DNA from: Paludibacter sp. | Lineage (GTDB): Bacteria > Bacteroidota > Bacteroidia > Bacteroidales > Paludibacteraceae | Assembly (NCBI GenBank): GCA_020049335.1 | Contig: JAIFKX010000076.1 | Span: 1 to 42,979 of the forward strand | Reading direction: 5' to 3' | Length of the DNA: 42,979 nt | Shown: positions 3 to 42,831 of the stretch, piece after piece | Numbering within the stretch: position 1 is the stretch's first letter | Layout of the letters: each line of letters begins with the position of its first letter | Notes under the pieces: model-generated | What the model was told of the DNA's origin: nothing | Databases searched by the model: none | The model's input: the letters and a program-made list of their open reading frames with translations, nothing else | Program-made: the position numbers and the translations under genes

Positions 3-3000
3 TATTCTGCAGGCAGTAGTCGTGGAGGGCTAGTAATAAGAGCTCAAGCCTCAGGTAATATAGAAGATGTAGAAGATGCAGCACCAGGAAGTACTTTTAA
101 CAGAGAAGGAATTGCTTTCTATCCTACTGATGATGGCACCAATATGATTGTTCAGTTTACAGGAGCTATCAATGAATCGTCAACTCCAGTTACAAGAATT
201 CAAGTTCCTAAACCTGATGGAATAACAAACCTACGAGCTGTTGGTGGTGGAACTTTAAGAATATACGATTTAGGAAAATCTATCTATGTATATTATAATG
301 GAGCACCTTATATCAGAATTGACCTTGGCGAAAAAACCGGAAGCATATATACATCCGGTACAGTTTACAACTCCAATATGCAAGTTATGGGTACTTTCAC
401 GGGCATGGAAGTGGAAGAGTTAGGTAAAGTTGCTGTTGCGCAAAGAGATGCAGCACTCAGACTTTATAATGTAACTATAAAAGCAAAAACAACATCATTA
501 TGGGTTGATCCACCTACAACAACTTACAATTCAGAGTATAACCAATCGTTTAATACAATTTGGGATGGCGTAAAGTTCAATAATCAATGGGATGCTCTTG
601 GACCATTTGACGCAACTGATGCTACAGCTGGTTATTTGCAATTTGTATGGATTCCAAAACGTATTCTTCGCTCAAAGACTCCTTATGTTACTCCGTATAG
701 TTTTTCAGCATTAATAGATTTTTCAGGAGGGTCTAATAGGGGTGGTATAGTAATAAGAACTGAAGATGGAGGAGACATTGAGGATTTACAGGTTTCTGCT
801 TCAGGAGACCCTGGATTCAATAGAGATGGAATTGCTTTTTATCCTACTAATGACGGCTCTAATATGATTGTTCAATTTACAGGTATATTAAACGGATATA
901 ACACACCTGTAACAAGAATTCAAGTTCCTAAACCTACCGGGATATCAAGTCTTAGAACAGTTGGAGGAGGCACTTTAAGAATCGAAGATTTTGGTTCATC
1001 CATATATGTATATTATAATGATGCTCCATATATAAGAATAGATTTAAGTGGTAAAACAGGAAACCTCTATACTTCGGGCACCGTTTACACTTCTGATATG
1101 AAAGTTGCAGGAACTTTTTCAGGGATGGAAGTAGTTGTTTTGGGTAAAGTTGGAATTGCACAAAGAGATGCAGCACTTAGGTTATATAATGTAGTTATCA
1201 AATGTAACGATCTTGAAAGACAAGCCATTACTTTTGATAAAATTGAGAAAAAGAAATTTACTGACACTCCTTTTGTTATATCTGCTTCTGCAACATCGGG
1301 ATTACCTGTCGAATTTAAACTAATTTCAGGTCCTGCAACCTTAAGTGGAAATACTGTTACTTTAACTGGCGAAATAGGCATTGTTACAATATCGGCAAAT
1401 CAAAGTGGTAATGCAATTTATTATCCTGCTCCTGAAGTTCTTCAGTTATTATATGTTGGTGATATTGCTACACCTAACTTACAAGGTCAGGATTATGTTG
1501 ATAATTGGGTGGCTACCGATGCCTTAGGACGAAAGTTACCATTTTCGGATGAAGTTCGTTCAAAACAAAACGATAAATATGTTGGTGTATTTTACTATAC
1601 ATGGCATGGATTTCATGGACAAGTAGTGAAAGACATAACAAAAATAATTAACAGTTACCCCTCAGATCCATTAAGTAATAGTAATCCTAATTGGGGTAGT
1701 ATTGGAGCTGATCACTTTTGGGGTGAGCCTGAAACAAGTTATCAGAGAGCAGAAGACCCGTGGGTGCTCCGACGCGATTTGCAAATGCTTAGCAATGCTC
1801 AGGTCGATTTTCTATTCATTGATTGTACTAATGCATTTACTTATCTTGAAACTGTCAAAGTCCTTTGTCAGGTTTCTATGCAAATGCGCAAAGAAGGTAT
1901 TAATACGCCACAGATTGTATTTACAACAAATGCATATAGTGGCAAAACTATGAACAAACTTTACGATGAGTTTTATACATTTTCATTGTTCGATGATCTT
2001 TGGTTTAAATGGGAAGGAAAACCATTGATTTTAGGTATTGCCGATGATCCTGATTTACGTGTAGAAGTAAAGAACTTTTTTACAATTAAATACTGCTGGG
2101 CGTGGACTGACGCCAAAAATAAACCTAATCATTGGCAGTGGTTAGATTCTTATCCACAAGATTATGGTTGGAATACCGACCCTGCTGTACCCGAACAAAT
2201 ACCTATTTCTGTTGCTTCACACCCTTCATTAACAATGGGAAGTAGCTACCAAAACAAACTTCAACCTACTGTTAATGAGCGGTATCTTACTGATTTTACT
2301 GGGCAAGGATTCTATTTTGCCGAACAATGGAAAAGAGCGTTAGAAGTTGATCCGAAAGTAATTATGGTTACACAATGGAATGAAGGCTTTGCGGGAAGGT
2401 TTATTTGGGATCAAGGTGATGCAATTTATGCAGGCAGACCAATCAAAAATGGGGATTCATATTTTGTAGATGCATTTACAGAAGAGTTCAACCGAGATAT
2501 AGTACCCATGAAAGGTGGACATACAGATAATTATTATTATCAACTCATAGCTAATATTCGCAAATTTAAGGGTATGACTGCTCCTCAATCACTCTCAACT
2601 CCGACTACAATTAATATTGATGGTGATTTTTCACAATGGACGAATATCAGTCCGGTATTCAAAGATCCGTTAGGTGATACAATGCATCGTAATTTTAGAG
2701 GATATGACCCTTCAGTTACTTTTGTAAACAATTCAGGAAGAAATGATATCATTGAATCAAGAGCTACTTACGATAATAGTAATATCTACTTCTATGTAAA
2801 AACGGCACAAGATCTTACTCCTTATAGCGACCCCAATTGGATGTTACTTTATATTGATGCTGACAGAAACAAAGGAACCGGATGGGAAGGTTATGATTAT
2901 GTTGTAAATTTAGGAGTAAAATCCGAAACAGAGACTACATTAAAAAGATGGGATGGCAGTGCATGGACAGACGAAGTTACTGTTCCATTTAAATTAATTG

Positions 3001-4376: not shown

Positions 4377-4465
4377 GTTGTATTAAAAAATATCCGAGAA
4401 TAAAAAGAGTAAAAAATGAATTGTTTAATAGTGTGTAAGAATAAATACGAAGAAACTAAAATAAT

Positions 4466-6616
4466 ATGAGCGTATCAATAAAAATATTTATATCAATCTT
4501 TCTATTTTTGTTTTATTCTTTATCAATTATCAAGAGTCAGTCTCTTGTTACATGCGGAACATTTTCGAAGATATATGATCCGAGTATTGGTGAGAGTTCA
4601 GCATGGTACATCAACGATCACGCAGTTGTATGTGGACCAGATGGTTGGCATTTGTTCGGAATAACACATGCAGAACCTGCAAATCCGATAGATGAAAAAA
4701 ATTTTGCCCATGCAACTGCAAGTGCTTTTACCCAACAACCATGGATAAAAAAAACATACGCGTTGAGTTATTCACCCGCAGATAATGAAGTGCTACTTTG
4801 GGCACCCCATGTAATCTATTCCAATGGTCTTTATTATATGTATTATTGTGTTGGAGCTAAAAATATCGACCACACCAAATTTCGGATGCATCTTGCAACT
4901 TCTCCCGATTTGTGGAACTGGACTCGACATACAGAAAATCCTATGGTAGTTGATGGATTCGATGGTCGTGACCCTATGGTTATTAAACTTGATAGCTGCT
5001 GGGCAATGTACTATTGTGCAACAAGTGGTCCGAATGGAGGTAACCATGTTGTTTATATGGTTCAAAGTACCGATCTTGTACATTGGGGTAATAGAATTAC
5101 AGTATTTACCGACACATTAACGGGAACTGCCGGAGGACCAACCGAGAGCCCTTTTGTCGTTCGTAGGGGTTCAAAATATTATCTCTTTACTTGTACAAAT
5201 GCTCCCTATAATAACTCAAGAGTGATGGTAAGTTCATCTCCTTACCATTGGAGTGCCGATAGTGTTGTTGGCGATTTTCCTGCTCATGCTGCCGAAATAG
5301 CAAGAGATTTGGATGGAAAATGGTATATTACAAGAGCTGGTTGGGGCGAAGGTGGTGTCTATATAGCTCCACTTATATGGAATGATGGGCTTGATTCAGA
5401 AGTAAGTTCTATGCCAGTTCCAACAGCATATAAAACACAGAAAATTCCGGGTGTTGTTGAATTTGAGGATTTTGACAATGGTGGTGCAGGTGTTGCTTAT
5501 TCGGATTTAACTATTGGAAATGCTGGTGGAGCATATCGTCCAACCGAATCGGTAGATATTGAATCAAAGGCCGCTGGAGGATACAACATTAATTGGATTG
5601 ATTCTGGCGAATGGTTTGCTTATACCGTTGATATTAAAGCAAGAGGAAAATTCACAGTAAATATTAATTATGCTGCCGAAGGAAATGGAAATGAAGCCAT
5701 TATTTACGTTGATGGAGCTGATAAATCGGGAATTATCACTTTCCCTTCTTCGGGAAATCTCACTACATGGGCAAACAAAAGTTTAGATATGCAACTTGTA
5801 ACAGGAAGACATATACTTAAATTCTTCGTCAAAAGCACATCTGGCTATTTCAAATTAGATAAAATTACTTTTACCGAAAAAGATGTACTCTATCCCGGAA
5901 ATGGAACAGGCTTGAATAAAAGTATATGGTCAGCACCGGTCGGTGGGAGAACTTGGTTCAAAGACTCTATTTGTTCCGAAATTGATCCTGTAATAAATCA
6001 TACATGGTCAGATGTAAGTCCGGGATGTAGTGTTAGCAAAGATTTTTGGAATATTCGTTGGCAGGGACAAATTCAATCGCTTTACACTGAAACCTACACT
6101 TTTTACCTCACAATGAATGACTTGGGCAGAGTTTGGATAGACAATCAATTGCTGTTGGATGGATGGAATTCATCAAGTACCGGAACTAGCCTTACTGGAA
6201 CAGTAGCTATGACAGCTGGACAAAAAGTACCAATTAAGGTTGATCTTGCCGAAAAATCAGGTGATGCTTATATAAAACTCGAATGGGGCTCGGCTTCAAA
6301 CGCCAAAGAAGTGATACCTCAAAGTCAGCTTTACCCTCTCTTAAATCCGAATGGAATTAAAAATATCAAGGCAAAGCATTTTAGTTTTTATCCAAATCCG
6401 GCAAACGACAAGTTGACCATTAATAGTGAGAACTATACTATAAAATCAATAAAAATAACAAATTTACAAGGAAATATTGTTCACTCAGATAATAAACAAT
6501 TTGTAGGAGAGAAAACGATTGAATTAAATCTACAAAAAGGAATATACTTTATTAGCCTAACAGGGAATTTGCCTTTCTCAACTCAAAAGCTAATCGTACA
6601 AAAGCAAACTATATAA
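4466..6616 (+). CDS. Five-bladed beta-propeller glycosidase-like protein (GH43/GH117-like) with CBM6-like, PA14-like and T9SS C-terminal domains
   Basis: Signal peptide; WAPHVIYSNGLYYMYYC, DGRDPMVIK and PTESPFVVRRGSKYYLFTC propeller motifs; EFEDFDNGGAGVAY (CBM6-like); WQGQIQSLYTETYTFYLTMNDLGRVWIDNQLLLDGW (PA14-like); FYPNPANDKLTI...GIYFISLTG (T9SS). Confidence 0.75.
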   Translation: MSVSIKIFISIFLFLFYSLSIIKSQSLVTCGTFSKIYDPSIGESSAWYINDHAVVCGPDGWHLFGITHAEPANPIDEKNFAHATASAFTQQPWIKKTYALSYSPADNEVLLWAPHVIYSNGLYYMYYCVGAKNIDHTKFRMHLATSPDLWNWTRHTENPMVVDGFDGRDPMVIKLDSCWAMYYCATSGPNGGNHVVYMVQSTDLVHWGNRITVFTDTLTGTAGGPTESPFVVRRGSKYYLFTCTNAPYNNSRVMVSSSPYHWSADSVVGDFPAHAAEIARDLDGKWYITRAGWGEGGVYIAPLIWNDGLDSEVSSMPVPTAYKTQKIPGVVEFEDFDNGGAGVAYSDLTIGNAGGAYRPTESVDIESKAAGGYNINWIDSGEWFAYTVDIKARGKFTVNINYAAEGNGNEAIIYVDGADKSGIITFPSSGNLTTWANKSLDMQLVTGRHILKFFVKSTSGYFKLDKITFTEKDVLYPGNGTGLNKSIWSAPVGGRTWFKDSICSEIDPVINHTWSDVSPGCSVSKDFWNIRWQGQIQSLYTETYTFYLTMNDLGRVWIDNQLLLDGWNSSSTGTSLTGTVAMTAGQKVPIKVDLAEKSGDAYIKLEWGSASNAKEVIPQSQLYPLLNPNGIKNIKAKHFSFYPNPANDKLTINSENYTIKSIKITNLQGNIVHSDNKQFVGEKTIELNLQKGIYFISLTGNLPFSTQKLIVQKQTI
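5422..6336 (+). repeat. Copy B of duplicated CBM6-like + PA14-like cassette (915 bp)
   Basis: Translates to TAYKTQKIPGVVEFEDFDNGG...VIPQSQLYP, equal in length to copy A, with long identical nucleotide stretches such as tggaattcatcaagtaccggaac. Confidence 0.85.
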
Positions 6617-24443: not shown

Positions 24444-26720
24444 ATGTGTTGGGTTAGAGGAGTTCATAGTGGTTATATCAGGTTGTTTATTTTTATTGAG
24501 TTACTAGTAGGTGGAGCATTTCCTGTAGCAAATTCTCAAGTAATACCTGCATATAACCAACAATGGACTGCTACGGATGGACTTGGGCGCAAATTAGCTG
24601 ATTCTGAAACTTGTGGTCAGCCTCGAGAAAAAAAACATATTGGCATGTTTTATTGGACATGGCATACTGATGATTTGGCTGATTTTTCGCCCGTAATGAA
24701 CATAACAAAAATACGGAAGGAGCAACCGGGTGCAATGTCGGATTTTCATCATCCTGCTTGGCTAAATAAACCCGAAGGCGGTGTGTTTTGGTGGGATGAA
24801 CCTTTATTTGGTTACTACCGAACAACTGATGAATGGGTGTTGCGAAAACATGCCGAAATGCTTGCTGATGCTAGTGTCGATGTGGTTTTTTTTGATTGTA
24901 CAAATGGAAGTATCACCTGGAAATCTTCTTATATTAAATTACTCGAAGTGTGGTCGAAGGCTCGAAAAGATGGAGTTAATACTCCCGGAGTCGCTTTCGT
25001 GTTACCTTTCGCTAATACACCCGAAGCTACTTCAACACTGAATGAACTGTACACCGAATTGTATAAACCCGGATTGTATAAAGACTTATGGTTTTATTGG
25101 AATGGCAAACCGCTTATTATGGCATATCCCGAAGCTTCAGCGACAAAAAAAAGCTCAGCAGCCATGAAATTTACTGCTAATTCAACATTCAATAATATTG
25201 CTATTCAGTGCGGATCAATAGGAGAAAATGCAGAACTAACACTAAAATTATTCAAGTGGAAAGAGAGCTATTCTGAGAGTATTCAATCCAAACCAATAGC
25301 AGAGAAACAATTCAGCAATATAAAGGCAGATGACGTGCTTAATCTTTCTGTGGAGAACTTATCAAAAGGCGATTACCTCTGGGAGTTGAGTAACCCAATA
25401 AATACGGTAGGAGTTTGGAAATGGGATAACACAATTGATAGTTCCGGGGTTTTTCAAAGTTTTTACAATGGACTTTGTTGTACGGGGAGTTATTGTTTTA
25501 GTATTAACTATATAAATTCACCACTTCAAAGTAAATTTACAGAAAACAATTGTTTGCGAAAAGCAATTCAGTTGAATTCAACAGAAGTAACTCAACAAAG
25601 AATAGCCGAAATACAGGAGTTTTTTACTTTTCGCCCCGGTCAGCCCGATTATGTGTATGGTCCAACCCGAAATGATCACTGGGGATGGCTCGAAATAGCT
25701 CCTCAACATGGATTTGGAGCAAAACCCGATGGAGGTTTTGAGCAAACTACAGTAGGTGTAGCTCAAAATGCATCTGTTGCAAGTGACGGACATGCTTGCG
25801 CATTTAATTCAGAACTAACATACGGAAGAAGTTATACCCATAAAAACGGACAGGACACAGCCAGTATGGCATACCTAAAAGGATTAAATTTTCAAGAACA
25901 ATGGAATAATGCCATTGCAATAAACCCCGATTTGATATTTGTAACAGGATGGAATGAGTGGATTGGCGGAAGGTGGTTGAATTGGGATGTTAAACCTTTT
26001 GCCTTTGTTGACACTTACAGCGCTGAAAAAAGCCGCGACATTGAACCTGTCAAATCGTGGGGAAATAAAGGCGATGTATATTATATTCAACTTATTAATA
26101 ATATTCGAAAGTTTAAGGGATTAAAAGAACCTGACTCTGTTTCTCCACCTAAAACTATACGTTTAAAGAATCTAGATGATTGGCGTGATGTTCGTCCCAT
26201 TTATGCATCGTACATAGGAAATACAATGCATCGAAATCATCCAGGGCAAGGAAAAACGCTGATATATACAAACAAAACAGGACGAAATGACATAGTTGAA
26301 GCTAAAGTGGCTCAAGATAAACATTATCTTTATTTTTATGTAAAAACCGCGGATGTTTTAAGTGCTAAAACTGACGAAAATTGGATGCGACTGTTCATTG
26401 ATATTGATAGGGATAAGGCTACAGGCTGGGAAGGCTACGACTATATAATAAACCGATTATCGCCAACTGAATCTGCTGTTGTCGAAAAAAACATCCAAAA
26501 TTCGTGGAAGTGGAAAAAATCGGGTATAGCACAGTACAGTATTGAAGGTAATTGCTTAGTTATAAAGGTGAAGCGCTCCGATTTAAATATTGAAGAATAC
26601 CTGAATTTTGAGTTTAAGTGGAGCGATAACATGCAAGAAAATGGAAATGTTATGGACTTTTATGTAAACGGTGACGTGGCTCCGGGAGGAAGATTTAATT
26701 ATATTTATAAGCAAAAATAA
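24444..26720 (+). CDS. Putative glycosidase paralogous to the core of the preceding protein (GH71/GH99-like barrel with insert plus CBM9-like domain), no T9SS tail
   Basis: Signal-peptide-like N-terminus; HIGMFYWTWHTDDLADFSPVMNITKI, GVFWWDEPLFGYYRTTDEWVLRKHAEMLADASVDVVFFDCTNGS, LIFVTGWNEWIGGRWL; ends at GRFNYIYKQK. Confidence 0.8.
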   Translation: MCWVRGVHSGYIRLFIFIELLVGGAFPVANSQVIPAYNQQWTATDGLGRKLADSETCGQPREKKHIGMFYWTWHTDDLADFSPVMNITKIRKEQPGAMSDFHHPAWLNKPEGGVFWWDEPLFGYYRTTDEWVLRKHAEMLADASVDVVFFDCTNGSITWKSSYIKLLEVWSKARKDGVNTPGVAFVLPFANTPEATSTLNELYTELYKPGLYKDLWFYWNGKPLIMAYPEASATKKSSAAMKFTANSTFNNIAIQCGSIGENAELTLKLFKWKESYSESIQSKPIAEKQFSNIKADDVLNLSVENLSKGDYLWELSNPINTVGVWKWDNTIDSSGVFQSFYNGLCCTGSYCFSINYINSPLQSKFTENNCLRKAIQLNSTEVTQQRIAEIQEFFTFRPGQPDYVYGPTRNDHWGWLEIAPQHGFGAKPDGGFEQTTVGVAQNASVASDGHACAFNSELTYGRSYTHKNGQDTASMAYLKGLNFQEQWNNAIAINPDLIFVTGWNEWIGGRWLNWDVKPFAFVDTYSAEKSRDIEPVKSWGNKGDVYYIQLINNIRKFKGLKEPDSVSPPKTIRLKNLDDWRDVRPIYASYIGNTMHRNHPGQGKTLIYTNKTGRNDIVEAKVAQDKHYLYFYVKTADVLSAKTDENWMRLFIDIDRDKATGWEGYDYIINRLSPTESAVVEKNIQNSWKWKKSGIAQYSIEGNCLVIKVKRSDLNIEEYLNFEFKWSDNMQENGNVMDFYVNGDVAPGGRFNYIYKQK
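24561..26717 (+). repeat. Paralogous glycosidase core, copy 2
   Basis: QWTATDGLGRKLADS...APGGRFNYIYKQK aligns with 20937-23092. Confidence 0.8.
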
Positions 26721-29573: not shown

Positions 29574-29625
29574 AAACTCCGGGAATTATTTATGATAGTC
29601 ATTTAAATAATCACCCGGAGTTTTT
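29574..29625 (+). terminator. Hairpin terminator between convergent GH78 and HTCS genes
   Basis: AAACTCCGGG (29574-29583) pairs with CCCGGAGTTT (29614-29623), with inner ATTATTTA (29585-29592) / TAAATAAT (29604-29611); plus-strand T run 29621-29625. Confidence 0.75.
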
Positions 29626-32600
29626 CCTGTAATTTTTTTAAAAGTCCGATTAAAATACGAAACATCACTAAATCCAACACGATATGCGATTTGTGAAAAG
29701 TTTAATTCTTTGATTAAAATCAATTCTTTGGCTTTATTAATTCGTATGGTATTAATAAATTCGGTAGTATTAACCTGAAGTGTTTGCTTTAATTTGTTAT
29801 GCAAATTTGTTCTGCTTATATTTAACAGGTTTGCAAGAAATTGAACATTCAGTTCGCTATTTTCAATATTATTCAAAATCAGATCATATAGCTTTTCAAT
29901 AAATGCTAACTCATGATTGGTAGACGGTATTATTAATCCCTCGAAATGAGCAAGGTCTTTTAATTTGTTTTTTAAAAAACGTCGATTGTTTAAAATATTA
30001 TTTATCTGAATATCAAGCTCATTCATTGAGAATGGCTTAGTCATATAGATATCAGCGCCAATTTGAAGCCCTTCAATTTTTGCTTCAGGAGTAGTTTTGG
30101 CAGTAAGCATAACCACAGGGATGTGACATAGGTTGATGTCAGTTTTTATTTTTGAGCATAGTTCTGTACCGCTCATCATCGGCATCATTATGTCTGTTAT
30201 TACAACATCTGGTATATTATTAGCAATATGCTCCCAAGCATTTTTACCGTTTTCAAAGCATTTTACTTTATATTTATACTTGAAATGTTTATTTAGCAAA
30301 AGCAATAAATCTTTATTGTCTTCGGCAATTACTATACTAAATTCCTTATGAACAGTTAGGACTTCACTGCTTTGGTGTATTTCTGTTTCGGTTGTATTAA
30401 TTATCTCTTTTAGGTTATTGTTAATGACATGATTTTCCACCTCATTAAAAGTTGTTCTTTCGGTAGTAATTGGTAAATTTACAATAAACTTACATCCATT
30501 CCCAGATTCACTCTCCACTGTGATTTCTCCCTTAAGTAATTTTACAAGACTTGCAGTTAATGCTAATCCTATACCGCTGCTTTCCACAAGTTCATTTGAG
30601 ATATCATCACTATAAAACACTTCAAATATTTTTTCTTTCTGTAGTTCGTCAAGTCCTTTACCACTATCTTTTACTGAAAATTCGATGGCATTGGGATTAA
30701 TATTTAATGAAAAACTGATTTGTCCATACTGAGGTGTGAATTTAACGGCATTTGTGAGTAAATTAGTAAGTATTTTTTCAAATTTATCAAAATCGAAAAG
30801 CAATTCAATTTCAGTATAATACATTTGAACTTTTAGGTCGATATTTTTTTTTGAAAGTAATGGTCGATAAACGCCAATGATTTGATTTGTAAAATCGACA
30901 ATATTCGCTTTTGTAATGTTTAGCACAGCATGGTCAGTTTCAATTTTTCTAAATTCCATTAATTGATTTACTAAAAACAATAGTCTTGTAGCACTGCGTT
31001 TTATTAAATTTTGCATCTCTAGTGTTTCAGCACCTTGCTTGTCATTACTTTTAAAAAGCATTTCAACAGACGCAATTATGATGCTAAGCGGGGTTTTAAA
31101 TTCGTGCGAGATGTATGTGAAGAAGTTCATCTTGTGCTGATGGAGTATATTAAGATTCTCCCTTTCGATTTTTTCAATAGTTAGCGCAACTTTTTCTGCT
31201 TGTCGATTTTGGTAATTACGATAAAGCAGAAAAGAGACTGCTCCAACAAAAACTAAATAAAGGAAATAAGCGAGTTTGGATGCCCAAAATGGAGGAGCAA
31301 TTTCAATTATTAAGGTACGTTCATCTCCGGTAATGTTAGAAATCCGATTGTTTGCCCGAATATGAAAAACATACTTTCCTGGTGAAATATTAGTGTAATT
31401 TGCCTGCATCTTTTCGGTCAAAGGAGACCATTTTTCATCGAATCCTTCAAGAAAATACTCATAAGCTATATCTCCTTCAAAATAGTTTATACTTGCAAAT
31501 TCAAATGCAAACGAGTTTTGGTTGTATTTTAGATTTATTTTATCACAAAAATCAATTTGCTTATCGATAATTTTTCCATCGGGCAAGATTATTTCATTGA
31601 AAATTTTAAAATTACTAAAATAGGTAGTTGGCCTGACTTTGGGAGTTAATATCTCTTCGGGTCTAAATTTTGTCAAACCATTTACACTTCCAAAGTACAT
31701 TGTCCCATCAGTATCTTTGAAATAGGATTTATAATTGTACTGATTGCCGGCAATACCATGTTTAAAATTGAAGTGAGTAGCTGTAGAATCTCTAAAGTTT
31801 AATCGGCTTATTCCTTTATTGGTGCTAATCCATAACAATCCTTTATTATCTTCAAGAATGCCGTAAACAACATTATCAATCAGCATCTCTTTTTTTTGTA
31901 TGGTTTCGAAAATATTTTTTTTCGAATCGAAACGACAAAGCCCATTTCCTCGAGTACCAATCCATATTTGTTTTTTTGAGTCAATGCAATGACTGATTAT
32001 TGAGTTGCTGGTAAGGTGTGAATTATCACCTGCTTTAAAATGAGACATTAAACCTCGACGATTTTTTTCTAAAATAAAGATGCCTTTATTATAGGTACAA
32101 ATCCAAACTTTTCCATCTGGGGCAGTGAACATATCGTAAACAAAACAATCGTTCAATTCATTTTCTCTAAATCGAGTGAATTTTTCGGTATTTTTATCAA
32201 ATAATTCTATCCCTGCAATAGTGCCAACCAAAATGGAATCGTTAAATAAATTCAGTAATGAAAAAACAAAATTATTATTCAACGAAAAAGGAATATTGAC
32301 ATTGCCAATAAATCGTTTAACATGACCGGTTTTAATATTTACTTTGGACAATCCGCCCATAAAATGACCAACCCAACAATCATCTTTATCCATTAGTAAC
32401 GCATGTATATTATTGGCTGGCTGTGTGATTTTGATTTCTTGAGAGGAAAACAGATGTCTAAAGGTTTGATCCTTTGTATTTAATATAGCAATTCCTGCAT
32501 CTTCGGTAGCTATCCAAATTTTGCCATCTGGTGCTTTTGCAATAGAACTCAACGCTTTTCCTTGAAGTGAATTTGGCTTTTCGTTTGGAAAAATAGCCTC

Positions 32601-33629
32601 AAATCCCAAATTTCTTGTTTTCGAAATATTTACTCCTCCAAAATATGTTCCTATAAAAATAACTTTTTGTTTGTTTTTGAAAATTTTATAAATAGCATTG
32701 TCGTTCAGTGTTTTACGTGATTTATCTATTGATTGAACAAAATGTTGAATATATCCGGTTTTTATATTAAAAATAAACAGACCCTTTTCAGTTCCCACCC
32801 AATACTCATCGGCGCTGTTGCCTTCTTCAATAGTTCGAATATAGTACATTTCAGTACCATTAGTAAATGTTACTGGACTGAATTTATTGTTGTTAAAATT
32901 ATAGGTAAACAATCCTTTCTCAAAAGTTCCCACCCATAATATCCCTTTTGAATCGCTCATTATATGCGAAATTGCCGAATTAAATAAAGTTGAATTTACA
33001 AAATAATTATTGGATATTTTATTGAATTTATTGAATCGATAGAGTGAAAATCTTGAAAACGCCCAATAATATCCTTCTTTATCCGCAGTCATACCAAATA
33101 TTCGATCTTTTAAAAAGGTTAATGGAGTGAATAGATTCTTTTTATAATTATAAATAAATGCTCCCGCATTTTCGGTTGAGATAAGCAACTCAGAACCAAT
33201 ACCTTGTTTGATAGCAATAATATCGCCAATTGGCTCGCCTTTAAATAATAATTGTTTGAAATTATCTTTTTCGGGAACATACCGTGCTAAGCCATTTGAG
33301 GTACCTACAAAAAGCTGGAAATCGGTGGTATAGATAATGCATGGTACAGAGTTGGATGGAAGCAAATTATTGTTTTTTAGAGCGTAGTATTGTTTAATAT
33401 TTCTACCATCGAAACGGTTAAGTCCTCCATCAGTTGCAAACCACATAAATCCCAAACTGTCTTGACAAATATCAAAAACAGTATTATGAGTCAAACCCTT
33501 GTCGTTTGTTATCGCATCAAAGAAATAGCTACTTTTTACCGCGCTTATACTTTGAGAGCCAAAACATAAAATCGCACAAAAAATTTTGAATTTAATTTGA
33601 ATGGTACAAATTGTAATTTTAGAAAGCAT
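29586..33629 (-). CDS. Hybrid two-component system regulator (HTCS): two-component-regulator propeller repeats, Y_Y_Y, HisKA, HATPase, receiver and AraC-type HTH
   Basis: Propeller repeats (GLTHNTVFDICQDSLGFMWFATDGGLNRFDG), FFTYISHEFKTPLSIIIASVEML, GSGIGLALTASLVKLLKGEI..., PDVVITDIMMPMMSGTELC, C-terminal NFSQIAYRVGFSDVSYFNRTFKKITGKTPGDYL. Confidence 0.97.
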   Translation of the reverse strand: MLSKITICTIQIKFKIFCAILCFGSQSISAVKSSYFFDAITNDKGLTHNTVFDICQDSLGFMWFATDGGLNRFDGRNIKQYYALKNNNLLPSNSVPCIIYTTDFQLFVGTSNGLARYVPEKDNFKQLLFKGEPIGDIIAIKQGIGSELLISTENAGAFIYNYKKNLFTPLTFLKDRIFGMTADKEGYYWAFSRFSLYRFNKFNKISNNYFVNSTLFNSAISHIMSDSKGILWVGTFEKGLFTYNFNNNKFSPVTFTNGTEMYYIRTIEEGNSADEYWVGTEKGLFIFNIKTGYIQHFVQSIDKSRKTLNDNAIYKIFKNKQKVIFIGTYFGGVNISKTRNLGFEAIFPNEKPNSLQGKALSSIAKAPDGKIWIATEDAGIAILNTKDQTFRHLFSSQEIKITQPANNIHALLMDKDDCWVGHFMGGLSKVNIKTGHVKRFIGNVNIPFSLNNNFVFSLLNLFNDSILVGTIAGIELFDKNTEKFTRFRENELNDCFVYDMFTAPDGKVWICTYNKGIFILEKNRRGLMSHFKAGDNSHLTSNSIISHCIDSKKQIWIGTRGNGLCRFDSKKNIFETIQKKEMLIDNVVYGILEDNKGLLWISTNKGISRLNFRDSTATHFNFKHGIAGNQYNYKSYFKDTDGTMYFGSVNGLTKFRPEEILTPKVRPTTYFSNFKIFNEIILPDGKIIDKQIDFCDKINLKYNQNSFAFEFASINYFEGDIAYEYFLEGFDEKWSPLTEKMQANYTNISPGKYVFHIRANNRISNITGDERTLIIEIAPPFWASKLAYFLYLVFVGAVSFLLYRNYQNRQAEKVALTIEKIERENLNILHQHKMNFFTYISHEFKTPLSIIIASVEMLFKSNDKQGAETLEMQNLIKRSATRLLFLVNQLMEFRKIETDHAVLNITKANIVDFTNQIIGVYRPLLSKKNIDLKVQMYYTEIELLFDFDKFEKILTNLLTNAVKFTPQYGQISFSLNINPNAIEFSVKDSGKGLDELQKEKIFEVFYSDDISNELVESSGIGLALTASLVKLLKGEITVESESGNGCKFIVNLPITTERTTFNEVENHVINNNLKEIINTTETEIHQSSEVLTVHKEFSIVIAEDNKDLLLLLNKHFKYKYKVKCFENGKNAWEHIANNIPDVVITDIMMPMMSGTELCSKIKTDINLCHIPVVMLTAKTTPEAKIEGLQIGADIYMTKPFSMNELDIQINNILNNRRFLKNKLKDLAHFEGLIIPSTNHELAFIEKLYDLILNNIENSELNVQFLANLLNISRTNLHNKLKQTLQVNTTEFINTIRINKAKELILIKELNFSQIAYRVGFSDVSYFNRTFKKITGKTPGDYLNDYHK

Positions 33630-33956: not shown

Positions 33957-36900
33957 ATGTTACATAGTAAAAACTTTTTTCCCTTAAATCGAATAGTTAT
34001 AAAGTTATTCGTTTTTTTCATGTTATTATTTACTTCTTTCGAAATGTTTGCTCAAACATCTCGATCTATTCAAGGTGTAGTTTTCGATAATCAAGGTGAA
34101 CCATTAATTGGAGTTAGTATTTCCATAATTGGAACAACAAAGGGTACAATAACAGATATTGATGGCAAATTCAATATTGAAGTCGATGCTATTAGTACGA
34201 AACTGACTTTTATGTATCTAGGTTATTTATCACAAACTGTTGAAGTTAATACCTCAAAATCACTAAAGGTGGTTATGCTTGAAGATACAAAGCAACTCGA
34301 TGAAGTAGTTGTGGTTGGTTATGGTACACAACGAAAAAAAGATTTGACGGGTGCCGTGGGCGTAGTTGATACCAAGGAAATGAAAAAAATTCAATCGTCA
34401 AACATAGGCCAGGCATTGCAAGGTCAGGTTTCCGGTGTTTCGGTAAGCACATCGGGCGAACCTGGATCAGGGGCTGATATTCGCATACGAGGCATCGGCA
34501 GTTTCTCTAACGTAGGGCCATTGTATGTAGTTGATGGAATGATTCTTAACGGTGGACAGCGCGAATTTAATGTAAACGACATTGAGTCGATGCAGGTATT
34601 GAAAGATGCTTCGGCCACAGCGCTTTATGGAGCCCGTGGTGCAAACGGAGTAATTGTTATTACCACAAAAAAAGGAAAAGATGGAGTTCCTAAAATAGAT
34701 CTTTCGGTTAACTATGGCAGTCAGCAAATTGTCAAGCGTATTGAGATGATGAACAGTTTGGAATTCTTACGAGTTAATCGTCAAGCTTACGAAAATGCCA
34801 GCATGTTGTGGCCGGGCGAACCCGCTCAGGGACAAGTATTGATAAACACCGACTGGCAGAATGAGTTTTTTCAACCAGGAAACACGCAGGATTATAACCT
34901 GACAGTTTCGGGAGGAAACAAGGATGGAAATTATCTTATTTCTGGAAATGTATTTTCGCAAGATGCTGTTGTAAAAGGACCATATCACGACCGCTACACT
35001 TTCCGTATTAATACTGAAATCAGAAAAGGTATTTTAACGATAGGGGAAAATATGCTTTACTCACGCACCCAAACAAAACCAATGATAGGTTCACCATTTA
35101 TCGATTTGTGTCGCCTCCCTCCTATTATACCTGTAAAAAACGAAGACGGAAGTTGGGGAACAGGGAGTACATCGTATCAAACTTACGGCACCAACCCAAT
35201 TGGTATGCAAGAAACCCGCGATTATCTACAAACATCGAATCGTTTGATAGGTAACATATTTGCAGAAATTGAGATTTTAAAAAACCTGAAATTCAAATCA
35301 AATCTTGGAATTGAATACCATGGTTGGAACGACCGTGAAAAAACAACTTTCGATCAAATTCGCTATCTCGAAGTATCCAATTACGAAAACAGCCTAACCG
35401 AGCGTAGAGGCGACTTCACAACACTTATGCTCGAAAACACACTGACATACAATAAAAAAATTGGCAAACATGCCTTTGATGTATTGGCTGGTTATACTGC
35501 TCAGGAAACAAAATGGAAACAACTAACTTCAACTGTAAACGATTTAGTTCCCGGATTTTGGGTAATAAGTGCCGGAAAAGAAGATATGTTGACAGACGGT
35601 AATGACTCAGAGTACGCTATGCTATCGTTGTTGGGACGTATAAATTATTCATTCGATGATAAATACCTGGTTCAGGCCAATGTTCGTCGCGATGGATCTT
35701 CACGATTTGGGGTGAATTATCGTTATGGTGTATTTCCATCAGCTTCGCTCGGATGGCGTATCAGTCAAGAAAAATTCTTTGAAGGAGCTAAAAAATACAT
35801 TGATGATTTGAAATTGCGTGCAAGTTACGGTATCATTGGCGATCAACAATCCATTGGCGATTACGATTACTCTGCTTATGTATTTGTTGGCGAAGGTGGT
35901 GTTTTTGGGTCGGATCAAGCACTTAATGTGGGCTCAATTCAAAAAGGAACTGCCAATCCGAATCTTCGATGGGAATCGAAAACTACATTCAACGCAGGAT
36001 TAGATTTTACTGCACTTCAGAATAAGTTATACGGTTCGATAGAGTATTTCTCGTCGGATTCAAAAGACATTCTCGTTAAGCTTCCTATGGCCTGGGCGTA
36101 TGGATCAGATTATATTCCGTGGACAAATTTCGGACGTATGATTAACAACGGAGTTGAACTTACACTCGGATTCAGAGAACAAAAGAACGAATTTAAGTAC
36201 AACGTAGGATTAAATTTGACCAAAGTAAAAAACACAATATTATCGTTGGGAGAAAGCTATCGCGAAGGTGGTAACAACGGAGTGAATCGTTCGGAAGAAG
36301 GACGGTCGGTCGGTGATTTTTATGTTATTCGTACCGATGGTATATTCCAAAGTTGGGACGAAGTGTATGCATACACCTTTACCAGTACCGATCCAGTAAC
36401 CAATGTGGAAACTACCTCCATGATTCAGCCCAATGCCAAGCCGGGAGATATTCGATACAAAGACAGTAATGACGATGGACAGATTGATAGTGATGACAGA
36501 GAATACGTTGGCAGTCCACTTCCTGATTATGAACTGGGATTACAGTTTTCGTGCGAATACAAGAATTTCGACTTATCTATGTTTATGACAGGGGTTTTCG
36601 GAAATCAAATATATAACAACACTAAGTATTGGCTCGAACGCATGGATGAAACAGCTAATTTACCATCGAGCCTAGTTCCATGGACAGAGGAAAATCATTC
36701 AACAACAACGCCTCGCGCAGTAATGGGACCAAATGAAAACACACGAGCAAATTCTGATCGCTGGATTGAAAATGGTGATTATTTACGCCTTAAAAATTTG
36801 CAAGTAGGCTACAATTTTACAAAAAAACTATTGCAACCTACCAAAATAATCCAAAGTTGCAGGTTATTTGCAGGAGTGCAAAACCTATTCACCATAACAA

Positions 36901-37016
36901 AATACTCCGGATACGACCCTGAAATTTCAGGAGGAGATGTTTTTGGAAAAGGAAATGACAACGGACATTTTCCACCGGTTAGAAGTTTTAATGCCGGAGT
37001 ACAAATTTCATTTTAA
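33957..37016 (+). CDS. SusC-like TonB-linked outer membrane transporter
   Basis: IQGVVFDNQGEPLIGVSISIIGTTKGTITDIDGKFNI, LDEVVVVGYGTQRKKDLTGAVGVVD, GADIRIRGIGSFSNVGPLYVVDGMIL, SMQVLKDASATALYGARGANGVIVITTKKGK. Confidence 0.97.
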   Translation: MLHSKNFFPLNRIVIKLFVFFMLLFTSFEMFAQTSRSIQGVVFDNQGEPLIGVSISIIGTTKGTITDIDGKFNIEVDAISTKLTFMYLGYLSQTVEVNTSKSLKVVMLEDTKQLDEVVVVGYGTQRKKDLTGAVGVVDTKEMKKIQSSNIGQALQGQVSGVSVSTSGEPGSGADIRIRGIGSFSNVGPLYVVDGMILNGGQREFNVNDIESMQVLKDASATALYGARGANGVIVITTKKGKDGVPKIDLSVNYGSQQIVKRIEMMNSLEFLRVNRQAYENASMLWPGEPAQGQVLINTDWQNEFFQPGNTQDYNLTVSGGNKDGNYLISGNVFSQDAVVKGPYHDRYTFRINTEIRKGILTIGENMLYSRTQTKPMIGSPFIDLCRLPPIIPVKNEDGSWGTGSTSYQTYGTNPIGMQETRDYLQTSNRLIGNIFAEIEILKNLKFKSNLGIEYHGWNDREKTTFDQIRYLEVSNYENSLTERRGDFTTLMLENTLTYNKKIGKHAFDVLAGYTAQETKWKQLTSTVNDLVPGFWVISAGKEDMLTDGNDSEYAMLSLLGRINYSFDDKYLVQANVRRDGSSRFGVNYRYGVFPSASLGWRISQEKFFEGAKKYIDDLKLRASYGIIGDQQSIGDYDYSAYVFVGEGGVFGSDQALNVGSIQKGTANPNLRWESKTTFNAGLDFTALQNKLYGSIEYFSSDSKDILVKLPMAWAYGSDYIPWTNFGRMINNGVELTLGFREQKNEFKYNVGLNLTKVKNTILSLGESYREGGNNGVNRSEEGRSVGDFYVIRTDGIFQSWDEVYAYTFTSTDPVTNVETTSMIQPNAKPGDIRYKDSNDDGQIDSDDREYVGSPLPDYELGLQFSCEYKNFDLSMFMTGVFGNQIYNNTKYWLERMDETANLPSSLVPWTEENHSTTTPRAVMGPNENTRANSDRWIENGDYLRLKNLQVGYNFTKKLLQPTKIIQSCRLFAGVQNLFTITKYSGYDPEISGGDVFGKGNDNGHFPPVRSFNAGVQISF

Positions 37017-37048: not shown

Positions 37049-38590
37049 ATGAAACACTTACATATAATCGCTGCAATTTTTGCAGTTATAAGTCTGACGG
37101 CATGTTCCAAGGATTTTCTGGATAGAAAAAATCCAAACGAAATGACTACCACCGACTTTTGGAAAACAGGCGACGATCTCCAAAAAGGAATTGACGCTGC
37201 TTACCGTCCATTGCGTTTTAACGGCGCATATTCCCGATGGCTACATATTCTTTACGTGTCGCGTTCCGACGAGGGTTACAGCGAATCGCCAAACCCTTAT
37301 TTTCAGTCATACTCAAATTTTCTCACAAAAAGCTACAACGATGATTCAGCAGAGGCAATAAAATTTACCTGGATTGATTTATACAAAGGTATTTTCTGGG
37401 CTAATCAGGTTATATACAACAGTACGAATATCAAAATGGATGAGGCATTGAAGACCAGAATTCTTGGTGAAGCGTATTTCTTACGTGGGATGCATTATTT
37501 CAACATTGCTGCTGTATATGGTCGTGGACCATTAATGTTAAATCCGTTTGCAGGTGGCGAAGCACCAGAAGTTGCAGAACAATTGGGTTTGTACGAACAG
37601 GCACGCAAAGATTTCGACGAAGCCATCAAAAGGCTTCCTGCTTACTACAGCGAACTTAAAAATTTGGGGCGTACAACCGAAGGAGCTGCACGTGGAATGC
37701 GTATAAAAGTACTTATGCAAGAACATAACTGGGCTGAAGCAGAAGCAGAATGCCGTACAATTTTTGCCTTGAAAAACAGTGGAGGACAACCACTTTATTC
37801 ATTAGTAACCAATTATAAAGATAATTTTTCGCAAGCAGGCGAGAATAATGCTGAATCAATCTTTGAAGTTCAGTATGCTCCTGGATTGCAATCAGGTGCG
37901 GAAGTCGGATGTAACCGTGCAAAATTTATGGGTATTGCAGCCGATGGATTATCATGGGCAGATGCTTATCCACGCAAATCGCTTTATAATGAGTTTTTAT
38001 TGGAAAAAACAACTGCCAATAAACCCGACCCTCGTATAAAACATACTTTGGCATATTACGATCCGGCAAATCCTACCGAAACATTTTATGGTAAAACATG
38101 GGATGAAATGAGTTTGAACCACGACATGGTTTATTGGAAAAAATACACCAATTACGAAACTGCAACTGTTGAAGATTATAATTCAGGAATCAATTTCAGA
38201 GTTGTTCGCCTCGCCGATATATATTTGTTGTACGCCGAAGCGCTCAACGAACTGAACCGAACTTCCGAAGCCTACGAATACATCAATAAAGTTCGTCGAC
38301 GTGTAGGAATGCCTGATCTTGAGAACTCAACCGTTTTTACTGGCATTGGAATCGACAAAGAGAAAATGCGTACACAAATTAGGCACGAACGTAGCTGCGA
38401 ATTAGGTGGAGAATCAACTCGCTGGTTCGACTTGGAACGTTGGGGTATGTTTGAAATTGCTACTAATGTAGCATGGCTCAAAAATCGCGATGCCGATTTT
38501 AACAATTTTATCATTGGTGTAAATAATCGCTTCCCGATACCATACCACGAGATTGCATTAGTTCCAATTACTCAAAACCCAGGATATTAA
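37049..38590 (+). CDS. SusD-like glycan-binding lipoprotein
   Basis: Lipobox SLTACSKDFLD, FWKTGDDLQKGIDAAYRPL, ILGEAYFLRGMHYFNIAAVYG, RLADIYLLYAEALNELN, RHERSCELGGESTRWFDLERWG, C-terminal ALVPITQNPGY. Confidence 0.96.
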   Translation: MKHLHIIAAIFAVISLTACSKDFLDRKNPNEMTTTDFWKTGDDLQKGIDAAYRPLRFNGAYSRWLHILYVSRSDEGYSESPNPYFQSYSNFLTKSYNDDSAEAIKFTWIDLYKGIFWANQVIYNSTNIKMDEALKTRILGEAYFLRGMHYFNIAAVYGRGPLMLNPFAGGEAPEVAEQLGLYEQARKDFDEAIKRLPAYYSELKNLGRTTEGAARGMRIKVLMQEHNWAEAEAECRTIFALKNSGGQPLYSLVTNYKDNFSQAGENNAESIFEVQYAPGLQSGAEVGCNRAKFMGIAADGLSWADAYPRKSLYNEFLLEKTTANKPDPRIKHTLAYYDPANPTETFYGKTWDEMSLNHDMVYWKKYTNYETATVEDYNSGINFRVVRLADIYLLYAEALNELNRTSEAYEYINKVRRRVGMPDLENSTVFTGIGIDKEKMRTQIRHERSCELGGESTRWFDLERWGMFEIATNVAWLKNRDADFNNFIIGVNNRFPIPYHEIALVPITQNPGY

Positions 38591-38654: not shown

Positions 38655-39737
38655 ATGAAAAAAACATTAATGAATATAACATTTATACTTCTGAACACAT
38701 TGTTATTCTGGTCGTCTTGTGTTGAAAAAACGGAAGAAATTCTTATTTGGAACGACCCTCCAACTTCGGCTGATACACTTTACCAAAATCCTGTATTTGA
38801 ACCTGACTTAGCTGACCCATCTGTAGTTAAAGCAGCAGATGGTTGGTTTTATGCTTATGGTACTGAAAATAATTGGAGTAACGGTATTCACCGAATGGTA
38901 CCTATTATTAAATCTAAGAATCTTACCAAATGGGAATATGTAGCGGATGCATTTATTGCAAGACCAACATGGAAAACAGATGGCGGAATTTGGGCTGTGG
39001 ATGTAACGTTTGTAAATAGCAAATACTATATGTATTACAGCGTTTCCACCTGGGGGGATTCAAATCCGGGAATCGGTTTAGCTATTGCTGATTTACCTTA
39101 TGGGCCTTTTGTTGATCAGGGAAAGGTTTTTGATTCTCAGTCGATTGGCGTAGCTAACAGTATTGACCCATGTTTTATTCAAACCGGAAGCGGGCGGAAT
39201 AAAAAGTCTTATTTGTTTTGGGGAAGTTTTCAAGGTATTTTTGGAACTGAGTTAAGTGCTGACCTGAAAACTGCTGTAGGTGCAAAATTCAAAATAGCAA
39301 ATGCTAATTTTGAAGGGACTTACATTTTGGAACGCAATGGCAAATTTTACTTCTTTGGTTCATTGGGTACATGTTGCGAAGGTATAGACAGCAAATACCA
39401 TGTTGCAGTAGCATGTGCAACCAATATTACTGGTCCCTATCTTGATAAATCCGGAAATTCAATTGCTGATTTTGGACAGGAAGGAACTCTTTTTATTAGC
39501 GGAGATCGTGAATGGGGTTGGGTTGGCCCGGGTCACAATGCCGAAATAATGACTGATGACAGAGGCAATGACTTCTTCTTATATCATGCCATTGATGTAA
39601 AAAATCCATATTTAGCTGGTGGGGCTACACGTCGCCCGTTGATGATGGACAAAATAACATGGGTTGATGGTTGGCCTCAAATAAAAAATGGATTACCAAG
39701 TAAAACCTTGCAAGCAGCCCCATATTTCGAAAAATAA
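38655..39737 (+). CDS. GH43 (arabinanase-type) glycosidase, putative lipoprotein
   Basis: Lipobox-like LFWSSC; YQNPVFEPDLADPSVVKAADGWFYAYGTEN, SIDPCFIQ, FEGTYILERNGKFYFFGSLGTCCEGIDSKYH, GWVGPGHNAEIMTDD. Confidence 0.85.
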   Translation: MKKTLMNITFILLNTLLFWSSCVEKTEEILIWNDPPTSADTLYQNPVFEPDLADPSVVKAADGWFYAYGTENNWSNGIHRMVPIIKSKNLTKWEYVADAFIARPTWKTDGGIWAVDVTFVNSKYYMYYSVSTWGDSNPGIGLAIADLPYGPFVDQGKVFDSQSIGVANSIDPCFIQTGSGRNKKSYLFWGSFQGIFGTELSADLKTAVGAKFKIANANFEGTYILERNGKFYFFGSLGTCCEGIDSKYHVAVACATNITGPYLDKSGNSIADFGQEGTLFISGDREWGWVGPGHNAEIMTDDRGNDFFLYHAIDVKNPYLAGGATRRPLMMDKITWVDGWPQIKNGLPSKTLQAAPYFEK

Positions 39738-39769: not shown

Positions 39770-40978
39770 ATGAAAATACAAATCATCATATCACTTTTAC
39801 TTCTTACGTTTAATGCTTCATTATCAGCTCAATTTGTTCCGTTTAATACAGTTTATGGGATGCAACATGCCGATATAGTAGCAGTAGATATTGATAATGA
39901 TGGTGATATGGATGTTGTTGTAAGTGGGGTTACAACTGAAAATAGTTTGCAAGTTCCCAAAAGTATGATTTATATTAATAACAATGGTGTTTTCACCCCT
40001 CAATTTTCTGAAAATCCTTCTACTTATCAGAATCCTGTTTTTACACCAGATTTTGCAGATCCTACGGTGATAAAAGCTGTAGATGGCTGGTATTATGCTT
40101 ATGGCACAGAAAACACTTGGACTGATGGGCATCATATAGTTCCGATTATAAAATCTAAAAATCTCGTTCAATGGCAATTTGTGTCCAATGCATTTAATGT
40201 GCGTCCAAGTTGGAAAACCGATGGTGGGATTTGGGCACCCGATGTCACTTATATAAATGGCAAATACTATATGTATTACAGTCTTTCTACATGGGGCGAC
40301 AGTAATCCTGGAATTGGGCTAGCAATTGCAGACTTGCCTCAGGGACCGTTTGTAGATCAAGGCAAGCTCTTCGATTCAAATTCCATTGGAGTTGCTAATA
40401 GTATAGACCCATTCTTTATTCAAACAGGCTCAGGAGCTACACTTAAGTCATATCTCTTTTGGGGAAGTTTTAATGGTATATACGGTATTCAATTAAGTGC
40501 CGACTTAAAAAGCACATCAGGATTAAAATTTAAAATTGCAGGGGATGCATTTGAAGCTCCTTATATCAAAGAAAAAGATGGCAAGTTTTACTTTTTCGGT
40601 TCAATTGGGAGTTGTTGCGAAGGGGCAGATAGTCAATATCATTTAGGCGTAGCAGTTGCTGATAACATTATAGGTCCTTATAAGAATAAAAATAATACAA
40701 GCATACTTATAAGTGGCCAAGAAGGCACATTATTTCTTAGTGGAAATTCTACACTTGGATGGGTGGGACCAGGTCATAATTCAAAAATCATTACAGACGA
40801 TGCAGGAAATGATTATCTTTTTTATCATGCAATTGATGTATCAAACTCCACGCTACCTAGTGGGGCAACCCGACGACCATTAATGCTCGACAAAATAAAC
40901 TGGATAGGTGGTTGGCCTTCAATAACGGGTGGATTTCCAAATGCTAATATACAAATTAGTCCTGTCGTTACTCAATAA
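39770..40978 (+). CDS. Chimeric protein: VCBS/FG-GAP-like N-terminal segment fused to a GH43 (arabinanase-type) domain
   Basis: Residues about 21-78 (FVPFNTVYGMQHADIVAVDIDNDGDMDVVVSG) resemble the N-terminus of the 41026 ORF. From about residue 85 on (YQNPVFTPDFADPTVIKAVDGWYYAYGTEN...) it resembles the 38655 ORF. Confidence 0.85.
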   Translation: MKIQIIISLLLLTFNASLSAQFVPFNTVYGMQHADIVAVDIDNDGDMDVVVSGVTTENSLQVPKSMIYINNNGVFTPQFSENPSTYQNPVFTPDFADPTVIKAVDGWYYAYGTENTWTDGHHIVPIIKSKNLVQWQFVSNAFNVRPSWKTDGGIWAPDVTYINGKYYMYYSLSTWGDSNPGIGLAIADLPQGPFVDQGKLFDSNSIGVANSIDPFFIQTGSGATLKSYLFWGSFNGIYGIQLSADLKSTSGLKFKIAGDAFEAPYIKEKDGKFYFFGSIGSCCEGADSQYHLGVAVADNIIGPYKNKNNTSILISGQEGTLFLSGNSTLGWVGPGHNSKIITDDAGNDYLFYHAIDVSNSTLPSGATRRPLMLDKINWIGGWPSITGGFPNANIQISPVVTQ

Positions 40979-41025: not shown

Positions 41026-42831
41026 ATGAGAAACTTTACTTTAATTTTAATGTTTTTCGCAATATCAGTTGCGAATGCACAATTTGCACAATTCGATGCA
41101 ACTTTTGACATGCAACACGGTGATGTTGTGGCTGCCGACATAGACAATGATGGAGACTTTGATATTATAGTTAGTGGAGAGACAGGAGGAAATCCAAAGA
41201 CTGTAAAAAATGCAATTTTCATCAACAATGCAGGTACTTATACTTTGCAGGGAACTGATAATGTAATTACTCCGGGACATTTTGCCGACATCAAAATAGG
41301 CGATTTTGATGGTGATGGTGACTTGGATGTAATATTTAATGGGAATAGCAATAACGAAATGGGAAAAGGCATTGCGCTTAATGATGGAAATGGAATCTTT
41401 TCACGTTCAGCATTAGATGTTACTTCGGCCACTATCTCGTGTGGATTTGCCGATTTTAACAATGATGGATTGCTCGATTATTTTGTTATAGGAAATGGTA
41501 CTGCAAACACGGGTACTATGTTTTTTCAGAATGGCGATGGAACATTTACCAAAGACCAAAGTTCATTTAGAAATCTAAACCTAGTAGATCCTGATATTTC
41601 AATTGTCGACTTTAATAACGATGGTTATATTGATATGTTTATAAGCGCATGGGATGATACTGCAAAATCGCGCTATTCCTCTTTATTAATTAATGATGGG
41701 TTTGGAAAGTTTGTTGCATTGCTTCAACCAAATCTTATCCGAAAAGGTTTCGGCTCATCAGTCTGGGGCGATGTAGATGGTGATGGTTGGATGGATTTAT
41801 TACTTAATGGTGATGGTGGTGCAGATGGCGAAGGTAGCTCGGATGTTTATCGCCTATATAAAAATAATGGGGGAAATCTTGAACCTAAAGCTACTTTCAA
41901 CGATTATCGTCAAATAAGCGTGGGAGATGGAGCACGCATGGTAGATTGGGATAATGATGGAGATTTAGATATTATTTTAACTGGTTGGAGTGGAACAAAA
42001 GGCCGACAGGCTACTATGCTTTTTGAATGTACCAATGCCACCAACTTCACTTATACCGAAAATGCATTGAGCAATACTGATTTTCCCGGAGTATCTGAAA
42101 GTAGTATTGAAACAGCCGATTTGAATAATGATGGCAAGATTGACCTTCTGATTACCGGATATAATGGAAATCAGGCAACACAAGTAGGTAAATTCGACAA
42201 GAATATCTGCGGATATTATCTTAATCAATCATCAAAAGTTAATATAAAACCTACAATACCAAGTGCCTTAAATCACCAAATTGTGAAGTCGGGTGAAGAA
42301 ACCTTAGTCACTTTAAGTTGGAATGCTGCAAGTGACATCGAAACTCCACAAAAATCTTTGACTTACAACGTATTGCTTAAAAATACAACTACAGGTAAAT
42401 GGCTATACAATCCAATGGCAGTAATTGGAGGTGAAAAAGATGGCTGGAGAAAAGTGAGTCAACATGGCAATGTATTTACAAATAAACGTTGGGAACTTTA
42501 CAATTTGCCTGCAGGTAATTACGAATGGAGCGTACAAGCCATTGATGCAAATTTTGTTGGTGGACCATATGCAGTATTAAAGACTTTTAGCATTACAGCT
42601 ACCGCTTTAAAACAAGTTATTGAAGGAGTAAACATCTCAAATTCCGATGGGAAATTAATGATAAATAATAATACAGGAAATAATATAAATATTCAAATAT
42701 ATGGTACAACCGGAAGTCTAGTAAAGCAAATTTCTGTAAACCATACAGTTTCTTTATCCTTAAATCGAGGAGTTTACTTTATAAAAGTTATGACTACGAA
42801 TAAAACTATGACTAAAAAAATAGTTTTATAG
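41026..42831 (+). CDS. VCBS/FG-GAP repeat secreted protein with T9SS C-terminal domain
   Basis: Repeated Asp-rich Ca-binding-like blades DIDNDGDFDIIVSG, DFDGDGDLDVIFNG, DFNNDGLLDYFVIG, DVDGDGWMDLLLNG, DWDNDGDLDIILTG, DLNNDGKIDLLITG; GVYFIKVMTTNKTMTKKIVL tail. Confidence 0.9.
   Translation: MRNFTLILMFFAISVANAQFAQFDATFDMQHGDVVAADIDNDGDFDIIVSGETGGNPKTVKNAIFINNAGTYTLQGTDNVITPGHFADIKIGDFDGDGDLDVIFNGNSNNEMGKGIALNDGNGIFSRSALDVTSATISCGFADFNNDGLLDYFVIGNGTANTGTMFFQNGDGTFTKDQSSFRNLNLVDPDISIVDFNNDGYIDMFISAWDDTAKSRYSSLLINDGFGKFVALLQPNLIRKGFGSSVWGDVDGDGWMDLLLNGDGGADGEGSSDVYRLYKNNGGNLEPKATFNDYRQISVGDGARMVDWDNDGDLDIILTGWSGTKGRQATMLFECTNATNFTYTENALSNTDFPGVSESSIETADLNNDGKIDLLITGYNGNQATQVGKFDKNICGYYLNQSSKVNIKPTIPSALNHQIVKSGEETLVTLSWNAASDIETPQKSLTYNVLLKNTTTGKWLYNPMAVIGGEKDGWRKVSQHGNVFTNKRWELYNLPAGNYEWSVQAIDANFVGGPYAVLKTFSITATALKQVIEGVNISNSDGKLMINNNTGNNINIQIYGTTGSLVKQISVNHTVSLSLNRGVYFIKVMTTNKTMTKKIVL

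Follow-up and report, generated by a model that had tools for sequence, protein, structure and literature searches.

At the end of a contig from Paludibacter sp., an open reading frame begins like the gene on its 3′ side and continues like the gene on its 5′ side, which raises the question of whether it is a genuine gene, how it was formed and what the change means for the enzyme it encodes. The window, that is, the whole stretch of DNA analysed here (42,979 nt), ends with three head-to-tail genes encoding a GH43 lipoprotein, the fusion and a VCBS protein; 5′ of these lie the SusC and SusD genes and a divergently transcribed hybrid regulator, which is probably the regulator of the PUL (Table 1). 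We found that the ORF is a genuine chimeric enzyme gene and that it is conserved; its architecture is new, the event behind it is of a known kind and its catalytic family is ordinary.

Table 1 Features of the fusion gene and its neighbours in the window.
Feature	Coordinates	Strand	Basis or remark
Fusion ORF	39770-40978	+	ATG start, 402 aa, no internal stops
Fusion signal peptide, residues 1-20, without lipobox	39770-39829	+	sequence
Fusion FG-GAP/VCBS blade 1 segment, residues 21-78	39830-40003	+	alignment to VCBS residues 19-75; Pfam FG-GAP_3
Fusion calcium-loop motif DIDNDGDMD, residues 40-48	39887-39913	+	
Fusion junction linker, residues 79-84	40004-40021	+	matches neither donor
Fusion GH43 catalytic domain	40022-40978	+	Pfam 2.7e-54; motifs; 1uv4 alignment; Foldseek to arabinanases
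Upstream GH43 lipoprotein, 360 aa, lipobox WSSC then CVEKTEE	38655-39737	+	Pfam PF04616 2.4e-51
VCBS protein, 601 aa: signal peptide, seven FG-GAP blades, T9SS sorting domain	41026-42831	+	
VCBS blade 1, homologous to fusion N-terminal segment	41080-41250	+	alignment
SusD-like lipoprotein, same PUL	37049-38590	+	directly 5′ of GH43, conserved in relatives
SusC-like TonB-dependent transporter, same PUL	33957-37016	+	SusC tree
Hybrid two-component regulator (HTCS)	29586-33629	-	Pfam Reg_prop, HisKA, HATPase_c, Response_reg, HTH_18

The initial annotation read this ORF as a VCBS-type N-terminus fused to a GH43; the alignments bear this out, and its coordinates are correct to within a few bases. 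Residues 8-78 align with positions 5-75 of the FG-GAP/VCBS protein encoded downstream, which has seven blades, and the N-terminus of the mature fusion reaches a score of 167 against it, where 1000 shuffles peak at 56. The score against the later VCBS blades is only 64; therefore, the N-terminal segment corresponds to blade 1 specifically and not to FG-GAP repeats in general. The signal-peptide DNA resembles that of the VCBS protein only weakly, no better than it resembles that of the GH43. From residue 85 to residue 398, the fusion aligns with residues 43-356 of the upstream GH43 (68% at the amino-acid level), and Pfam GH43 (PF04616) matches residues 86-383 over its complete profile (1-288 of 288) with 184.9 bits against a cut-off of 32.2. 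The FG-GAP_3 match (PF13517, residues 40-97) reaches 26.1 bits, slightly below the cut-off of 26.9, and the two other fusions described below also score under this cut-off (25.0 bits for L040, 20.1 bits for L121); despite these scores, the blade homology is clear from direct sequence alignment. The gene order agrees with the claim that the chimera sits between relatives of both donors. Judging from the tree and AU test given below, the upstream GH43 is a relative of the GH43 donor, and by its sequence the VCBS protein is a relative of the other donor.

In terms of the propeller, the fusion point falls between blades 1 and 2. The model of the VCBS protein (mean pLDDT 84) is a propeller, and the protein has seven DxDxDG calcium loops (residues 38, 93, 143, 195, 249, 307 and 365) and a C-terminal T9SS sorting domain (TIGR04183 / PF18962; 30.2 vs 23 bits). 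In this model, the last residues of blade 1 are 72-74 and the following strand begins at 88, while the homology of the fusion ends at 75-77, indicating an interblade join. Integrin-type FG-GAP/VCBS seven-bladed propellers (CRTAC1 9etn, integrin alpha) match the VCBS protein by sequence and fold and are its best structural matches. In contrast, the fusion has one blade only rather than a closed seven-blade propeller, and a lone blade is unable to close a propeller. A limited literature search (titles and hit lists), which included GH43 with VCBS or FG-GAP in PULs, returned no description of a GH43 fused to a VCBS/FG-GAP blade.

The same fusion, sought in relatives as the initial annotation had proposed, was found in two further genomes. 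An independent MAG (JAURYB010000065.1, L040), which came from a separate pattern-based scan of genome contigs, has the same five genes in the same order with a 403-aa fusion. A genome of the same genus as the window (G033) has a 405-aa fusion at the locus L121, adjoining a second VCBS gene and away from the orthologous locus. All three fusions share the same junction. In genome searches covering 48 genomes of the genus, 358 of the family, 393 sampled from the order and 395 sampled from the class, only the window genome and G033 gave a single match spanning the signal peptide through the GH43. We also screened 77 distinct GH43-like ORFs from the fetched loci for an upstream calcium loop; none outside the window, L040 and G033 has the single-blade architecture, and three long clostridial proteins carry an unrelated motif far upstream. 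Thus, against the suggestion that the architecture might be ancient and widespread, the fusion goes back further than one species but is lineage-restricted, with three genomes found.

Most relatives keep the two-gene arrangement SusC-SusD-GH43-VCBS without a middle gene, which is the ancestral state. It is present in Coprobacter secundus (L041), G007 (L122, where the VCBS gene extends past the contig end), G046 (L123), G052 (L124) and G282 (L173), as well as in three genomes of another genus of the family (L192-L194). In the C. secundus locus (1206-4285), the SusC homologue is split into two overlapping ORFs in a frameshift-like manner, either real or from sequencing. The orthologous locus of G033 (L120) has three genes, and its middle GH43 (L120mid; 4281-5366, minus strand, G033:C37) is unfused and carries an ordinary signal peptide of its own, followed by a short linker. 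This gene belongs to the GH43 clade of the fusions, and a comparison with shuffles detected no blade remnant in it above the shuffled level.

In the GH43 tree, the three fusions and L120mid form one clade (support 100/99), and the AU test rejected the pairing of the window fusion with its neighbour GH43 (p 1.2e-5), which also rejects a recent local duplication. Since the fusion GH43s cluster together and the neighbour pairing is rejected, the event is older than the separation of the window, L040 and G033 species. Of the tandem duplication and recombination proposed by the initial annotation, the duplication-type origin is thus retained, but the present neighbours are not the immediate parents. 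In the VCBS tree, the VCBS gene beside the L121 fusion branches as sister to the remaining three (90/95), congruent with the order in the GH43 tree. Both trees are in line with an old pair of fusion and VCBS gene, from which the blade was later lost in L120mid.

The explanation that we favour as a whole, and consider somewhat better than an even bet, is that the gene is a fixed chimeric paralogue from one tandem duplication in a SusC-SusD-GH43-VCBS polysaccharide locus, which yielded a soluble periplasmic GH43 whose blade is mainly passenger or stabilising. The duplication would have occurred in the ancestor of the window species, L040 and G033, starting inside the GH43 gene just past the lipobox linker and ending inside the VCBS gene just past blade 1. 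Such a single event would leave both genes intact and place between them a gene that begins as VCBS and continues as GH43. This layout, intact GH43, VCBS'-'GH43 and intact VCBS, is present in the window and L040. In S. aureus, short-junction tandem duplications were shown to yield the chimeras nusG'-'sigH and rplK'-'sigH between intact genes, driven by the promoter and start of the downstream gene (PMC3486894). As in the window, the chimera is in frame, with its beginning taken from the downstream gene and the remainder from the upstream gene; in contrast, the S. aureus chimeras arose recently and reversibly in the laboratory and their junction repeats are visible, while the window fusion is an old, fixed one that several species share, and its repeat is no longer readable. 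From the layout and this proven precedent, we infer a one-step origin. One-step formation predicts a duplicated intergenic stretch and a short repeat at the breakpoints, and no similarity above shuffles was seen (intergenic stretch: window, p 0.83; L040, p 0.56); because synonymous sites are near saturation (0.6-0.8 differences per site), these values are uninformative rather than contrary. Both the intergenic copy and the repeat would by now have decayed.

A two-step origin, in which a whole additional GH43 copy arose first and became non-lipidated and its 5′ end was later swapped for that of VCBS by recombination between adjacent genes, is the strongest competitor, although we regard it as rather unlikely. 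The unfused, non-lipidated and bladeless L120mid at the orthologous locus of G033 is the kind of second GH43 that such a route would pass through, and a clade restricted to the fusions was not rejected by the AU test (p 0.41). The best GH43 tree, however, nests L120mid among the fusions, albeit weakly (87/58), the VCBS partners show the matching order, and the one-step layout accounts for all of this with one event. That an assembly artefact joined two adjacent genes, a concern of the initial annotation, is next to impossible: the window genome is a draft (332 contigs, 83% complete), but the segments differ from the neighbours in 30-40% of bases (DNA identity of 60% over the N-terminal portion and 69% over the GH43 portion), and two other, divergent assemblies, L040 and G033, contain this join as well. 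With one tandem duplication as the preferred origin, the locus would offer a clean natural bacterial case of a tandem-duplication-type chimeric gene that was fixed and kept across species, in which the two-gene state, the unfused paralogue and the fusion are all still observable.

The N-terminus also changed in the manner that the initial annotation described, from a lipoprotein to an ordinary signal peptide. The upstream GH43s of the window (WSSC), L040 and L120 have a lipobox, and it is absent in all four genes of the derived clade, the three fusions and L120mid. Because all four lack the lipobox and one lacks the blade, the constant change is the loss of the lipid anchor, and the blade is non-essential. 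The main effect of the fusion is, therefore, probably that the enzyme was freed from its anchor, as far as sequence can tell. A T9SS sorting domain (TIGR04183 / PF18962) was sought in the window fusion and gave no hit. Because its signal peptide is ordinary and both a lipobox and a T9SS tail are missing, the fusion product is probably soluble in the periplasm, which is most simply the predicted new address of all four derived proteins. There, the enzyme would trim arabino-oligosaccharides imported by SusCD. The older GH43 copy would remain a surface lipoprotein. In the window, L040 and L120, the upstream GH43s have charged, acidic-rich residues after the lipobox that are reminiscent of the lipoprotein export signal of Bacteroidota, whose Capnocytophaga form is C-X-K-(D/E)2 (PMC5080379), although the match is inexact. 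For a polysaccharide locus in Bacteroidota, a fusion of this kind would be a simple way to acquire a second, differently targeted enzyme.

The GH43 domain of the fusion has intact catalytic Asp/Asp/Glu motifs, with ADP (ADPTVI) at 96, IDP at 212 (NSIDP at 210) and FE (FEAP) at 261, and they align with the corresponding motifs of 1uv4. AlphaFold predicts the GH43 domain with a pLDDT of about 96 and the single blade with 54-67, and Foldseek matches the GH43 domain to arabinanases. The closest solved relatives by sequence and structure are the GH43 endo-1,5-alpha-L-arabinanases 1uv4, 1gyd and 6b7k, which share the fold and catalytic motifs with the fusion; they differ in having ~30% identity to it and no additional FG-GAP blade. 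Against the AbnA equivalog (NF053747, arabinan endo-1,5-alpha-L-arabinosidase), the fusion reaches 130.4 bits, well below the cut-off of 480. The fusion is, thus, a predicted arabinanase-like GH43 and not a member of AbnA.

The captured blade is under weaker constraint than the rest of the protein. Its pN/pS is 0.44-0.48 with bootstrap intervals below 1, as compared with 0.20-0.26 in the GH43 domain of the fusions and 0.06-0.19 in the intact VCBS blade 1, all rough values owing to near-saturated synonymous sites. Within the blade, the calcium loop stands out: 8 of its 9 columns are invariant in the three fusions vs 17 of 53 in the remaining blade (Fisher p 0.002). We consider the blade a tolerated, partly constrained extension that would be mainly passenger or stabilising.

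It is doubtful that the blade has a function of its own, docking the enzyme onto the VCBS propeller by blade insertion or swapping or otherwise linking the two proteins. The calcium loop is conserved in all three fusions, independent VCBS/GH43 fusions at blade boundaries occur in G490 and G006, and VCBS-type propellers have been tied to sugar recognition and protein contacts (PMC9218822). Moreover, the VCBS paralogue beside the G033 fusion (L121 4695-6473, minus strand, G033:C33) has lost calcium loop 1 (EINAVGDVN) alone of its seven, where the fusion keeps its own loop; pN/pS of this paralogue is 0.5-0.66 in the lost-loop region vs 0.2-0.25 in blades 2-4. However, L120mid does without the blade, constraint on the blade is relaxed, its predicted structure is of low confidence, and the VCBS proteins of the window and L040 retain their own blade 1. 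The VCBS protein also has a T9SS tail that the fusion lacks, and the two may never share a compartment for long. An even more specific idea, to which we give very little weight, is blade complementation, where the GH43 is a clip-on subunit that completes or swaps into the VCBS propeller at blade 1 and its partner could afterwards dispense with blade 1, as in G033 with its degenerate calcium loop 1. The hint is one observation among three genomes, and the compartment logic is against it; if true, the complementation would be between two gene products born of a tandem duplication.

Two other proteins of the family combine the same two protein kinds, joined between blades as in the window fusion. 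In G490, a 962-aa VCBS protein (L175 13834-16722, minus strand, G490:C109) contains a complete GH43 at residues about 262-590, set in frame between the fourth and fifth blades, and no such GH43 was seen at the corresponding position in G1095. In G006, a 912-aa protein (L176 5465-8203, plus strand, G006:C88) has a different GH43 at the front of a VCBS part, which contains FG-GAP repeats and ends in a tail with a weak T9SS-like match. The G490 GH43 groups with those of L123 and L124, and the G006 GH43 is different and distant; the two fusions are apparently events independent of the window fusion. A common origin with the G490 protein was considered and rejected: the tree is against it and the VCBS part groups within its own genus, although the AU test (p 0.11) alone would be insufficient. 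When neighbouring genes fuse repeatedly, this is a classic indirect sign that their products act jointly. The two independent fusions elsewhere in the family, thus, suggest that GH43 and VCBS proteins work together, and the repeated, apparently independent GH43 and FG-GAP/VCBS T9SS fusions hint that the poorly understood VCBS proteins beside SusCD are working partners of the enzymes.

We also noted further content of the wider locus. A 758-aa protein (24444-26720) gave no hit to Pfam or NCBIfam at E 0.01. The region 4466-29544 encodes rhamnosidases (GH106, GH78), a sulfatase, isomerase-like and uroporphyrinogen decarboxylase-like genes, and CBM6/PA14 T9SS proteins; beside the arabinan-type GH43s, this content suggests a rhamnose-rich substrate, perhaps sulfated or pectic.
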